Source: Malaciobacter marinus
Lineage (GTDB): Bacteria; Campylobacterota; Campylobacteria; Campylobacterales; Arcobacteraceae
Direction: 5' to 3'
Assembly (NCBI RefSeq): GCF_003544855.1
Contig: NZ_CP032101.1
Location: forward strand, 1,302,001 to 1,366,000
Length of the DNA stretch: 64,000 nt
Made by a program: the position numbers and the translations under genes. Positions within the stretch are counted from its first letter, which is position 1; the number at the start of each line of letters is the position of its first letter. The notes beneath the pieces are model-generated. The model had not been told where the DNA came from. It did no database searches and saw only the letters and a program-made list of their open reading frames with translations. Shown here piece after piece: positions 2,295 through 50,629 of the stretch.

Positions 2295-3257
2295 CTAAAA
2301 TAGATCTATTGTATGCATTTGACTATCATTATAGACAAAAAACTCATTTCTTCCTTTATTTTTTGCTTCATATAAAGCATTATCAGAGCTATTTAATATC
2401 TCTTCAATTGTTTTTGCGTTATCAGGAAATAAAGAAATACCAATGCAAATTGTCTTTAATAAAGTTTGACCTGTTTTCTCATTTACTAAAATCTCCTTTT
2501 TACTAAAAGATTCAATTATTTTTTTTGCAATCATTATTGCATTTTCTTGACTTCTTACGTTTTGTAATACTACTAAAAACTCATCTCCATCAATTCTTGC
2601 TACAATATCAGAACTTCTTACTGTATCTTTTAGTAACTCTGCTAAAGTTATTAATACATTATCTCCAATATTATAATCAAATTCATCAATCACAGCTTTA
2701 AATTTATCAATACCAATCTTTAAAAAACCAATCTTTTTATTTTCTCTTTTTGAAAGAGAAATTACCATTTCTAAGTAGTTTTCTAAATACTTTCTATTAT
2801 AAAGTCCAGTAATTTGATCCTTTAGTGAAAGCTCTTTTATGCACTCTTCTAAATACTTATTATAAAGAGTTTGAGAGATAATGTCAAATGTAGTAACTAA
2901 AGCGTCATTATTTATCTCTAAATTATGATAGTGTTGTTCGTCATTACAATATATTTCATAAGTTATTATTACATTTTGACTTAAATTAATTAAATATGTA
3001 AGCTTAAAGTCTGGATTAAAAGTACCATTTTTTGTTTCAAAAATAATTTCATTATAATTATTAATAGAATCTTTAAATAAAATTTTTAAATTTTTCACAT
3101 TGTGGCTATTGCTTAGTGATATAGCAAGATATCTTAATGAGTCGACAAAAAGTTTTACAATTTTTTTATCTTCATTAATTGTAAATTCAGCATGCTCAAT
3201 ATTTTTTTGTTGGTCTTCTAAAATTTGTCGGAATGAGTTTACCATTATATTACTCAT
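2295..3257 (-). CDS. GGDEF-domain protein (probable diguanylate cyclase), DGDEF signature
   Basis: 320 residues. No membrane segment is seen. Residues about 1-150 are an unrecognised N-terminal domain; about 155-310 are a GGDEF domain with FKAVIDEFDYNIGDNVL and signature ARIDGDEFLVVL near 222. DGDEF differs from GGDEF only at the first residue, a change also seen in some active cyclases, so c-di-GMP synthesis is possible but not certain. It is a tandem paralogue of the downstream gene, sharing the domain plan and the C-terminal IDLF. The 9-base gap between them and the 10-base gap to the upstream hydrolase gene suggest one transcript of three genes. Confidence 0.87.
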   Translation of the reverse strand: MSNIMVNSFRQILEDQQKNIEHAEFTINEDKKIVKLFVDSLRYLAISLSNSHNVKNLKILFKDSINNYNEIIFETKNGTFNPDFKLTYLINLSQNVIITYEIYCNDEQHYHNLEINNDALVTTFDIISQTLYNKYLEECIKELSLKDQITGLYNRKYLENYLEMVISLSKRENKKIGFLKIGIDKFKAVIDEFDYNIGDNVLITLAELLKDTVRSSDIVARIDGDEFLVVLQNVRSQENAIMIAKKIIESFSKKEILVNEKTGQTLLKTICIGISLFPDNAKTIEEILNSSDNALYEAKNKGRNEFFVYNDSQMHTIDLF

Positions 3258-47670: not shown

Positions 47671-47722
47671 CGCTATTTAAGAGATACTGTCTTAAAATTT
47701 CACATATTCAAAAGGAATGGAA

Positions 47723-49846
47723 ATGATAAAAGAAGTACTAAAAAGAAATGGAACAACCAAAGAGTTTCAAAGTTTTAAAATTGAAGATGTAATAAAAAAA
47801 GCTTTTAAAAGCGTAAATACAAAATATGATAAAACAATTTTCTTTAATGTATTGGAACTTTTAGAACAAAAAAGAGTAATTGCAGTTGAAGATATACAAG
47901 ATTTTATTGAAAAAGAGTTATATAAAGCAAGATATTTTGAAGTAATGAAATCTTTCATGCTTTATAGACATATGCATAAAATGCAAAGAGAACATGTATT
48001 AGGATTAGACAAAGATACGACTTATATTAATTGTACACAAACGATTCAAGAGTATATTAATAAAACGGATTGGAGAATTAATGCTAACTCAAATACTGGT
48101 TATTCTCATGCAGGTTTAATTAATAATAGTGCAGGAAAAGTAATTGCAAATTATTGGTTGGATAAAATTTACTCAAAAGAAGAGGGCTATGCCCATAGAA
48201 ATGCTGATTATCATATTCATGATTTGGATTGTTTAAGTGGATATTGTGCAGGTTGGAGTCTAAGAGTATTATTAGATGAAGGTTTTAATGGCGTAAGAGG
48301 AAGAGTTGAAAGTTGTGCTCCTAATCATTTTAGAGAAGCATTAGGCCAAATGGCAAATTTTTTAGGTATATTACAAAGTGAATGGGCTGGAGCTCAAGCT
48401 TTCTCTTCTTTTGATACTTATTTAGCTCCATATGTTTTTAAAGATAAATTATCTTATTTAGAAGTGAAGAAAAATATTAGAAGTTTTATTTATAATCTTA
48501 ATGTTCCTGCACGTTGGGGACAAAGTCCTTTTACAAATGTTACTATTGATTGGACAGTGCCAGAGGACTTAAAAGATCAAATACCAACAAAAAGACAAGA
48601 ACATTTATTTAATGATTTTCATGATGATGAATTATTTGAGATTATTAAAGAAAAAGGATATTTAAGTTTCAAAGATTTAACTTATAAAGATTTTCAAAAA
48701 CAGATGAATATGATAAATAAAGCTTTTTATGAAGTAATGACAGAGGGTGATAAAACAGGTCAACCTTTTACTTTCCCAATCCCTACAGTAAATATTACAG
48801 AAGATTTTGATTGGTATGGAGAAAATACAGATATTTTATTTGAAAATAGTGCAAAAATTGGTTCATCATATTTTCAAAACTTTATAGGAAGTCAATATAT
48901 AAAAGATGAAAATGGAAATTTAATTCCAAATGAAAAAGCTTATAAGCCAGGGCATGTAAGAAGCATGTGTTGTAGGTTGCAACTGGATTTAAGAGAACTT
49001 CTTAAAAGAGGTGGAGGTCTTTTTGGTAGTGCAGAAATGACTGGAAGTATCGGTGTTGTTACAATTAATATGGCAAGACTTGGATATATTTTCAAAAATG
49101 ATAAAACTGCATTATTTGAAAGACTTGACGAATTAATGTTACTTGCAAAATCGACTTTAGAGAAAAAAAGAGAGTTTATTCAAACACTTTATGATAGAGG
49201 ATTATTTCCATATACAAAAAGATATTTGCATCATTTTAATAATCATTTTTCAACTATAGGTATTAATGGTATAAATGAAATGATTAAGAACTTCTTTGAT
49301 TTAAAAGAAGATATATCAACTAATGTGGGAATAGAGTTTTCACATGAGATACTAGATCATATGAGAGAAAGAATGGTTGAGTTTCAAGAAGAGACTGGAA
49401 ATTTGTATAACCTTGAAGCAACACCAGCAGAAGGAACAACTTACCGATTTGCAAAAGAAGATAAAAAAAGATTTAAAGATATTGTACAAGCTGGATTTGA
49501 TAAAAATATATATTATACAAACTCATCTCAGCTTCCAGCAGACTTTACAGATGATATTTACGAAGCATTAGATTTACAAGATGACTTGCAAGGTAAATAT
49601 ACAGGAGGAACGGTACTTCATTTATATATGAGAGAAAGAGTAAGTTCAACAGAAGCTTGTAGAAAATTGATTAAAAGTGTAATTTCAAATTATACTTTAC
49701 CTTATATTACAGTTACTCCACTTTTCTCTATTTGTCCTACTCATGGATATATAAGTGGAGAGTTTGAATATTGTCCAAAATGTGATGAAGAAATTTTAAA
49801 AAAGGAGTTAGAAGAATGGAAAGTTACAAAATACCAAAACACTTAG
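47723..49846 (+). CDS. nrdD: Anaerobic ribonucleoside-triphosphate reductase NrdD lacking its glycyl-radical segment
   Basis: Start taken at ATG 47723 (MIKEVLKRNGTTKEF) because AAAGGA lies 6 bases upstream; the ATG at 47717 is too close to it. 707 residues. ATP-cone (about 1-90), then the catalytic barrel with active-site Cys in SGYCAGWSLRVLLDEGFNG near 173 and RSMCCRLQLDLREL near 414, and the zinc site SICPTHGYISGE / EYCPKC near 675. The frame then stops after KVTKYQNT, so the glycyl-radical motif expected at the C-terminus is absent. That motif lies in the overlapping -1 frame (49816-49977). A frameshift at A AAA AAG would give a 753-residue protein of usual class III length. nrdG, the activase, follows. 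Confidence 0.93.
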   Translation: MIKEVLKRNGTTKEFQSFKIEDVIKKAFKSVNTKYDKTIFFNVLELLEQKRVIAVEDIQDFIEKELYKARYFEVMKSFMLYRHMHKMQREHVLGLDKDTTYINCTQTIQEYINKTDWRINANSNTGYSHAGLINNSAGKVIANYWLDKIYSKEEGYAHRNADYHIHDLDCLSGYCAGWSLRVLLDEGFNGVRGRVESCAPNHFREALGQMANFLGILQSEWAGAQAFSSFDTYLAPYVFKDKLSYLEVKKNIRSFIYNLNVPARWGQSPFTNVTIDWTVPEDLKDQIPTKRQEHLFNDFHDDELFEIIKEKGYLSFKDLTYKDFQKQMNMINKAFYEVMTEGDKTGQPFTFPIPTVNITEDFDWYGENTDILFENSAKIGSSYFQNFIGSQYIKDENGNLIPNEKAYKPGHVRSMCCRLQLDLRELLKRGGGLFGSAEMTGSIGVVTINMARLGYIFKNDKTALFERLDELMLLAKSTLEKKREFIQTLYDRGLFPYTKRYLHHFNNHFSTIGINGINEMIKNFFDLKEDISTNVGIEFSHEILDHMRERMVEFQEETGNLYNLEATPAEGTTYRFAKEDKKRFKDIVQAGFDKNIYYTNSSQLPADFTDDIYEALDLQDDLQGKYTGGTVLHLYMRERVSSTEACRKLIKSVISNYTLPYITVTPLFSICPTHGYISGEFEYCPKCDEEILKKELEEWKVTKYQNT
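49798..49804 (+). promoter_or_regulatory. Candidate -1 frameshift heptamer A AAA AAG in nrdD
   Basis: Reading the NrdD frame, codons TTA AAA AAG contain the heptamer A AAA AAG in the phase needed for tandem tRNA slippage; the same heptamer drives the E. coli dnaX frameshift. After a -1 shift the next codons are GGA GTT AGA AGA ATG GAA, which run straight into the glycyl-radical frame. The -1 frame is open from 49789 to 49977. The heptamer also overlaps AAGGAG, which is 8 bases before the ATG at 49816, so it may only be a ribosome-binding site. Confidence 0.5.
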
Positions 49847-49977
49847 AAAGTGAAAGAACAAAATGTGTAGTTTATACTAGAGTTATGGGTTATCATAGAC
49901 CAGTTGAAAGTTTTAATATAGGGAAAAAAGGTGAACATAAACAAAGAGTTAAATTTATCGAAAAAAATAATATATGA
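49816..49977 (+). CDS. Detached glycyl-radical domain of NrdD (53 aa)
   Basis: 53 codons from ATG 49816 (MESYKIPKHLESERTKCVVY), preceded by AAGGAG 8 bases upstream. The core TRVMGYHRPVESFNIGKKGE followed by HKQRVKF is the C-terminal glycyl-radical loop of class III ribonucleotide reductases, with the radical Gly in VMGY. It overlaps the end of nrdD in the -1 frame and its own end overlaps the start of nrdG by 47 bases. Two readings are possible: a separately translated radical subunit (compare the spare radical domain YfiD of pyruvate formate-lyase) or the C-terminus of a frameshifted NrdD. A genuine frameshift mutation or sequencing error is a third. Confidence 0.8.
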   Translation: MESYKIPKHLESERTKCVVYTRVMGYHRPVESFNIGKKGEHKQRVKFIEKNNI

Positions 49978-50629
49978 TATTACTCGATTTACAACTTTAG
50001 ACTATAAAGATAATTTATCTTGTATTGTATGGTTTATATCATGCAATATGAGATGTCAATATTGTTATAATAGTAATATTGTTTTGTCAAAAGAAGGAAA
50101 TTATGAAATTAAAGATTTATTTACTTTTTTAGAAAAAAGAGTAGGGCTTTTAGATGCTGTTGTATTAAGTGGTGGTGAAGCTACAATGCATAATTTAGAA
50201 CCAATTTGTAAGAAAATTAAAGCAATGGGATTTAAAATAAAGCTTGATACTAATGGATTAAATACAAAATTAATAAAAACTTTGATTGATGAAAAATATA
50301 TTGATTATATTGCTTTAGACTTTAAAGCTACAAAAGATAAATTTGAAGAGATAACTAAAACAAATCAATATAATAAATTTCTTGATACATTAAATTTTTT
50401 GATTGATAAAAACTTTGATTTTGAAGTAAGAACAACTTTACATGAAGAGTTATTAAATGAAAATGATATAAATAAAATAGTTGATACCTTAGTAAGCAAA
50501 GGCTACAAAAATAGCCTTTATATACAAAATTTTTTAAATGTAGAAAATTTTGCTAATCTTAAAGAATCTAAAAAAGTTTTAAATAAAGATTTATTAAGTA
50601 ATAAATTAAATATTATCTGGAGAAATTAA
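49931..50629 (+). CDS. nrdG: Anaerobic ribonucleotide reductase activating protein NrdG
   Basis: 232 residues, radical SAM activase that generates the glycyl radical on NrdD. Cluster motif SCNMRCQYCYNSN (CxxxCxxC) near 41 and AVVLSGGEATMHN near 75, with KLDTNGLNTKLIKTL near 103. Start is GTG at 49931, preceded by AAAAAGG, and it lies inside the glycyl-radical gene (overlap 47 bases), so the three frames are tightly coupled. The 3' end overlaps the convergent regulator by 24 bases. At 232 residues it belongs to the longer pyruvate formate-lyase activase-like forms. Confidence 0.9.
   Translation: MNINKELNLSKKIIYDITRFTTLDYKDNLSCIVWFISCNMRCQYCYNSNIVLSKEGNYEIKDLFTFLEKRVGLLDAVVLSGGEATMHNLEPICKKIKAMGFKIKLDTNGLNTKLIKTLIDEKYIDYIALDFKATKDKFEEITKTNQYNKFLDTLNFLIDKNFDFEVRTTLHEELLNENDINKIVDTLVSKGYKNSLYIQNFLNVENFANLKESKKVLNKDLLSNKLNIIWRN

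Follow-up and report, generated by a model that had tools for sequence, protein, structure and literature searches.

The 64,000-nucleotide stretch of Malaciobacter marinus DNA analysed here (the window; contig NZ_CP032101.1, positions 1,302,001 to 1,366,000) very probably encodes a class III ribonucleotide reductase made of two polypeptides, the large protein NrdD and a separate subunit of 53 residues that would carry the radical glycine. The glycyl-radical domain of NrdD type (GRD) is encoded by an open reading frame (ORF) separate from nrdD. This ORF is conserved in relatives, its frame and position with respect to nrdD vary, its codons show an excess of synonymous changes, natural fusions of the two pieces occur, and it lies in an operon with nrdG. 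From these observations we infer that the small protein is made, docks on NrdD and works as its radical subunit.

The nrdD, GRD and nrdG genes

The features of the locus, in window positions on the forward strand (+), are:

47717-49846 (+): nrdD, large subunit of class III ribonucleotide reductase, 709 aa (PF13597 2-529, PF03477, NF006126; invariant residues in alignment; Foldseek)
49733-49783 (+): zinc-ribbon segment C673-x2-H676...C686-x2-C689 at the end of the large subunit (alignment)
49784-49843 (+): tail of the large subunit, D-E-E-[IL]-[IL] and then variable, predicted helix, candidate docking element
49798-49804 (+): A AAA AAG heptamer, in phase with the nrdD codons
49802-49807 (+): AAGGAG, putative Shine-Dalgarno sequence of the radical subunit gene, 8 bases 5' of its ATG
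49816-49977 (+): predicted stand-alone glycyl-radical subunit gene, 53 aa, ATG start (profile match, conservation in relatives)
49816-49854 (+): N-terminal segment of the radical subunit, candidate docking helix (family pattern [IL]-L-x-x-L; here I6...L10)
49888-49890 (+): codon of the putative radical glycine (Gly25, in R-V-M-G-Y; homology to the NrdD family C-terminus)
49931-50629 (+): nrdG, radical-SAM activase of NrdG2 type, first start GTG 49931 (TIGR02495)

The nrdD product comprises an ATP-cone, a barrel with an M-C-C-R finger loop (C418, C419) and a zinc ribbon, and a Foldseek search with its model (mean pLDDT 71.8) returned class III reductases at all of ranks 1-36 (best E 6.7e-23). 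The finger loop M417-C418-C419-R420 and the zinc-site residues C673, H676, C686 and C689 were invariant in 33 aligned sequences, the latter in register with the zinc region of P. copri NrdD. The original prediction, made from the letters of the sequence, had NrdD stop at 49846 after its zinc site without a glycyl-radical motif, and our coordinates and frames agree; no R-V-x-G-Y motif or radical glycine was found in the 709-residue ORF, which ends after C-P-T-H...C-P-K-C. The motif had been placed in a 53-residue ORF in the -1 frame overlapping the end of nrdD, and this was borne out by the ORF reading and by the PF13597 profile (562 positions), of which 2-529 match NrdD (532 bits) and 532-562 match the small protein (30.7 bits, cut-off 26.2). 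A single NRDD profile divided between the two ORFs makes the match more than chance. No Pfam family except NRDD matched the 53-residue protein at E 1. It contains TRVMGYHRPVESFNIGKKGE, in which the radical Gly25 is assigned by homology, and this glycine was invariant in 66 aligned GRDs. The -1 frame open from 49789, the in-phase heptamer, the AAGGAG 8 bases before the ATG and the start of nrdG within the small gene were likewise all found as described. The nrdG product matched TIGR02495 with 178.6 bits (cut-off 131.15).

The genome consists of one contig of 2.92 Mb, in which no second GRD was matched (E up to 10). The closest named relative in the collection searched was Malaciobacter halophilus (94% over the small protein). 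A role of the small protein as a YfiD for pyruvate formate-lyase was rejected, as the genome gave no match at E 0.01 to the pyruvate formate-lyase-type radical domain PF01228, the family to which YfiD is assigned.

The junction between nrdD and the GRD gene in relatives

The heptamer also allows for a programmed -1 frameshift at A AAA AAG, by which the radical domain would be joined to NrdD in an enzyme of 753 residues, as the original prediction had offered as one of two possibilities. The site is in phase, the -1 frame is open upstream of it, and of the six genus members read, five have it in phase with nrdD (L002-L006) and one lacks it (L007). The junction was read in 30 + 80 loci, from which four (no readable nrdD or a cut edge) and six duplicates were removed, leaving 100 non-redundant loci. 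The GRD is in the -1 frame with respect to nrdD in 35 of these, and a slip site leading into the GRD frame is present in five, namely the window, three genus members and, as a weak AAATTTC, one locus of another genus (L104). Conservation of slip site and frame relation in relatives, which the prediction had named as a check, does not extend beyond these five. An A AAA AAG in nrdD phase near the nrdD end occurs in 15 loci, and in 10 of them the GRD lies in a frame that a -1 slip cannot reach. The GRD start lies after the nrdD stop in 23 loci, and in 20 the GRD frame opens only past that stop, so that no frameshift could join the genes there. Moreover, nrdD and the GRD gene are unlinked, at least 59 kb apart on the contig, in at least six genomes of one genus (G125, G253, G212, G236, G392, and G243), in three of which (G125, G253, and G236) the remote GRD gene adjoins nrdG. 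Taken together, these results make the frameshift very improbable. The heptamer encodes Lys-Lys and overlaps the Shine-Dalgarno site, and it is probably best read as two lysine codons in that position rather than as a conserved slip site.

The second possibility, a separate radical subunit, fared better. The GRD is an ORF of its own in the window and in all 29 relatives (30/30 loci). A Shine-Dalgarno-like site precedes the GRD start in 65 of 78 loci of the named collection (the best 80 of at least 573 stretches, with six of the 80 loci from Bacteroidota), a count biased upward because, among the in-frame ATG codons, the one with the best site of this kind was taken as the start. In the GRD core (36 codons) of six genus members, 142 synonymous and 24 non-synonymous codon differences were counted, summed over 15 non-independent pairs and with the last GRD codons overlapping nrdG. 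In most of 76 loci the two genes overlap or are adjacent; four loci have a gap of 824-853 bases (L016, from the same genome as L096, L023, L120, and L121). Placing nrdG inside this wide gap proved wrong, since it comes after the GRD in the four loci with nrdG in view.

These data also bear on artefact or decay, that is, an nrdD broken by sequencing error or mutation with the small ORF as its remnant. The overlap of the two frames is the sole point in its favour. An assembly error is ruled out because the GRD is an ORF of its own in all 30 loci, and in 183 of 186 GRD-bearing Campylobacterota genomes, and the predominance of synonymous changes in the GRD core speaks against decay. We regard the probability of this explanation as negligible.

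Spread of the split enzyme

The split enzyme was found in Campylobacterota, Bacteroidota, and Pseudomonadota, including Cupriavidus necator H16 (pHG1); its share was measured in Campylobacterota only. Among 397 Campylobacterota genomes, a GRD was identified in 186 and an NrdD body in 188, with both present in 185. Of the three genomes with NrdD and no GRD, two are cases of a contig end (G033 and G359), and in the third nrdD is truncated and interrupted by a stop (G168). A fused GRD was seen in none of the 78 named-collection loci with a readable upstream frame, and a stop inside nrdD was seen in one draft locus (L066, identical to L009). In another genome (G263), a second nrdD copy is spread over two overlapping frames and is apparently broken (L248 3708-5887).

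GRD matches were also obtained in 28 plasmid records. Among those opened, split operons are annotated in Sulfuricurvum, Bradyrhizobium, Cupriavidus necator H16, Sulfuricystis, Azospira, Shinella, and Aquabacterium. The split was seen by alignment in a Cereibacter plasmid; in a Thiothrix plasmid the small gene is annotated and the nrdD body aligns in two pieces, and the plasmid-borne nrdD of C. metallidurans and Paracoccus ends after the zinc site. Fused genes were found in Actinomyces oris, Acidiphilium, Acidithiobacillus, and Geoalkalibacter. The gene is thus already annotated, the small ORF being labelled "nrdD anaerobic ribonucleoside-triphosphate reductase" in plasmid records; a functional description of the annotated small ORF was not found. 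A plasmid of Allochromatium vinosum (pALVIN01, L257 2974-3183) carries a GRD gene beside a CHAP-domain gene; neither an nrdD body nor nrdG is annotated less than 3 kb away.

In C. necator H16 (L196), nrdD occupies 765-2795 and the ORF with the radical motif 2938-3138, 142 bases downstream. The nrdDG genes of this organism are said to have been treated by Siedow et al. in 1999, and earlier work on its NrdD reportedly discussed glycine 650. Residue 650 of the pHG1 NrdD is indeed a glycine, located within CPTHGYLAGEHPFCP of the zinc region, and R-V-M-G-Y is found in the separate small gene. Cloning a split nrdD and leaving out the small ORF behind it, or mutating a glycine in the large ORF, fails to capture the radical site. 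This caution covers most of the sampled nrdD-bearing Campylobacterota as well as C. necator H16.

Fused enzymes and the free ends of the two chains

The small protein is tied to NrdD by the natural fusions, because in these a single chain contains both pieces, in unchanged order. For the phylogeny, 168 loci with an NrdD body gave 163 usable cores, 51 after thinning and finally 46 rows, five long rows (three fused and two split viral) having been dropped from the 51-row tree, which had long branches. In the 46-row tree, six fused rows (two of them near-copies) lie among split enzymes and five changes between fused and split forms are needed; a single clade of fused rows was rejected (p-AU 1.8e-104). 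As no root was inferred, the direction of change is not proven. In the 51-row tree, more distant fused enzymes on long branches fall outside the main group, which would fit an old split followed by several re-fusions; several independent splits may be the alternative.

The two chains differ from the fused enzymes at their ends. Eight fused proteins have 8-16 residues between the last zinc cysteine and R-V-x-G-Y, whereas in split enzymes a median of 17 residues follows the zinc cysteine in the large chain and 21 precede R-V-M-G-Y in the small chain. The hydrophobic pair of the large-chain tail, D-E-E-[LI]-[LI/V], was present in 76 of 76 loci, and the D-E-E-[IL]-[IL] pattern was not seen in the linkers of the eight fused proteins. 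On the small chain (78 loci), hydrophobic residues occupy the three positions of [IL]-L-x-x-L in 92, 80, and 85% of cases. Residues 687-708 of the large subunit are helical in the AlphaFold2 model. We propose that the tail and the N-terminal segment may be docking helices that replace the covalent link.

The same material can be taken to indicate neutral gene fission, with two pieces that are always needed together and a separation without functional consequence. The frequent overlap or adjacency of the genes and the five exchanges between fused and split forms are what this would predict. The conserved hydrophobic pattern on both free ends argues against it, and the unlinked GRD genes of at least six genomes, together with viral copies without a detected NrdD (see below), suggest an independent life of the small part. 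We hold neutral fission to be a serious possibility, though clearly short of an even one.

Several results weigh against a two-polypeptide enzyme, or against its importance. The GRD lies within a long nrdD ORF in three Campylobacterota genomes (G112, G183, and G283), and with the several fused plasmid-borne enzymes this means that separation is not essential. One draft assembly (G380) has a GRD and nrdG and nrdD was not found in it. The AlphaFold2 model of the small protein alone was poor (mean pLDDT 61.8) and was not used as evidence. Finally, the M. marinus genome also encodes the small subunit of a class I reductase, so the class III enzyme need not be essential. In the fused NrdD ORF of G183 (L246 4120-6801; 893 aa), some 180 additional residues precede the NrdD match.

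GRD copies in prophages and viruses

In several Campylobacterota genomes, two or three GRDs were found beside a single nrdD match. The extra copies are 69-90% identical over 40-54 residues to a GRD of the same genome (eight pairs). Two lie beside a holin gene (L229 and L235), one beside genes for an endolysin and an Rz-like spanin (L238) and one beside a Mu Gam-like gene (L237); four more (L230, L234, L241, and L242) have neighbours that were judged phage-like by eye.

Two scans of viral contigs, giving 53 loci and the best 80 of 181 loci, placed GRDs on at least 121 distinct viral contigs in their union. In the first set, an nrdD body was present in the locus in two of 53 cases and nrdG in one, and when 36 of these records were searched whole with a profile, two gave an NrdD body and a third a weak partial match; virus records may be fragments. 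In the second set, searched with Campylobacterota-type queries, no NrdD body and no nrdG turned up within 3 kb in any of the 80 loci, and the GRD frame was at most 150 aa in 76 of them (maximum 252 aa). A tblastn search with one GRD gave no match at E 0.01 in 50,697 phage records. A query of a second GRD type gave three, two of them within a long nrdD ORF. The third is the archaeal virus ANMV-1 (38 kb, 69 annotated genes), which encodes a 144-residue protein with zinc-ribbon cysteines and a glycyl-radical loop (L260 2707-3141, corresponding to KP703175.1 25525-25959) and has no annotated reductase body.

For the neighbours, 28 loci were picked from the first set without near-copies, recoded contigs or nrdD, and 42 of 55 neighbours were searched. 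In 10 of the 28 loci the immediate neighbour belongs to a PHROGs lysis or lysozyme family (L143, L145, L146, L148, L151, L155, L157, L160, L163, and L168), a frequency for which there is no background rate; L148 is the same prophage as L238. In L167 the GRD gene adjoins that of thymidylate synthase. By eye, viral GRDs are of Campylobacterota type, of Pseudomonadota type or neither, which may reflect the enzyme of the host.

Other features of viral loci were observed in passing. In L186, L187, L188, and L190, TGA stands at the expected conserved glycine of N-x-G-K, consistent with UGA read as glycine (table 25). The NrdD ORF of a gut phage (L258; MT835493.1) continues past the radical domain into a tail named thioredoxin-like by eye, and one viral contig of 59 kb has two GRD genes about 43 kb apart (L273 and L274).

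Proposed mechanism and possible role of the separation

In the two-polypeptide enzyme proposed here, NrdD would supply the ATP-cone, the zinc ribbon and the substrate barrel in which the thiyl cysteine lies. The radical glycine would come from the 53-residue protein, with an ATG and a Shine-Dalgarno site of its own for translation. NrdG would place the radical on the small protein, which would dock in the NrdD barrel where the C-terminal loop of NrdD would otherwise sit and hand the radical to a cysteine of the M417-C418-C419-R420 finger loop. Cleavage by oxygen would affect no more than the small chain, for which a fresh copy could then be substituted. This last step is drawn from the cleavage of NrdD by oxygen at the glycyl radical (PMC3019208, in the sections available) and from YfiD and its phage T4 counterpart, the accessible text on which deems spare parts for other glycyl radical enzymes possible (PMC8683613). 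Exchange after oxygen damage is plausible, with indirect support from the prophage and viral GRDs. More weakly, the data hint that separation would make it cheap to exchange radical subunits cut by oxygen, and that the copies in prophages and viruses might serve the host enzyme as spare radical subunits.

The separation could then be mainly a repair device, in which the stump left by oxygen cleavage dissociates and NrdD is restored by a new copy of the 53-residue protein in a YfiD-like manner, with viral copies restarting deoxyribonucleoside triphosphate synthesis when the host radical subunit is damaged or limiting. Besides the two precedents just cited, the additional GRDs in phage-like regions of genomes with a single nrdD point in this direction, as do the many viral contigs with a GRD set against the two NrdD bodies in 36 records searched whole. 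However, neutral gene fission can also give separate subunits, the viral records may be incomplete, and adjacency to lysis genes could simply mark a hot spot for extra genes. We place this role just under an even chance. For the wider proposition, the scales are evenly balanced: that class III reductases of Campylobacterota, Bacteroidota, and Pseudomonadota carry their radical on a dissociable subunit, and that bacterial and archaeal viruses carry this subunit alone as an interchangeable spare part for host NrdD, activated by host NrdG, which would make class III reductases the first glycyl radical enzymes besides pyruvate formate-lyase with a spare-part system. The glycyl radical is where anaerobic ribonucleotide reductases are vulnerable, the chain being cut by oxygen at the glycine. 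With the radical on a subunit of 53 residues, a small part would be lost in place of the entire enzyme, an arrangement that would be fitting for microaerobic bacteria. The split enzymes and viral copies make the spare-part idea directly testable.

Comparison with known systems

A separately encoded NrdD radical domain was not found described in the open-licence literature, although subscription papers could hold such a description; the accessible portions of PMC11226230, PMC9669993, PMC9531940, PMC3653736, PMC3019208, PMC4390871, PMC5704485, PMC8683613, PMC11528403, PMC5645315, PMC3322345, and PMC12288474 contain none. The M. marinus enzyme resembles the class III NrdD proteins of P. copri (8P23), T. 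maritima (4COI), and phage T4 (1H78) in its NRDD family, ATP-cone, barrel, zinc site and adjacent nrdG. Its catalytic domain and fold, finger-loop cysteine and NrdG-type activase are those of class III, and the finger loop is of the double-cysteine type described in the available part of PMC9669993. It differs in that the radical glycine is not in the same chain. In P. copri NrdD, according to the sections at hand, the glycine follows directly after the zinc site (GRD 676-739, Gly711; PMC11226230), and T. maritima NrdD likewise has the radical motif in the chain, whereas in M. marinus it is on a separate polypeptide. The table of a 2015 review, as far as accessible, gives the storage radical of class III as a glycine in the enzyme and that of class I as a tyrosine in a separate subunit (PMC4390871).

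The dnaX-type -1 frameshift shares with the window an in-phase slippery heptamer, but conservation of slip site and frame is not found here. Split class II reductases (NrdJa/NrdJb) also have a C-terminal domain on a separate gene; there, in the text available, it is a cysteine-rich redox domain and not a radical carrier (PMC5704485), and the catalytic subunit of M. marinus is an NRDD protein of class III and not of the B12-dependent class II. Phage nrdD genes in pieces (phiAS4 and Lactococcus phage 949) are fragmented too, but those in the part consulted are single cases, some with introns or inteins (PMC3653736), whereas the present split is at one place and conserved across phyla.

The small protein also resembles YfiD/GrcA and Y06I of phage T4, which, in the accessible account, are small autonomous proteins with a radical glycine and also occur in phage (PMC8683613). 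The M. marinus protein is of NRDD type, without a zinc ribbon and without the PF01228 domain of the pyruvate formate-lyase type. YfiD supplements a complete pyruvate formate-lyase, whereas M. marinus NrdD is without a GRD of its own and the genome yielded no source of the glycine other than the small protein. Extra GRD copies do occur in other genomes.

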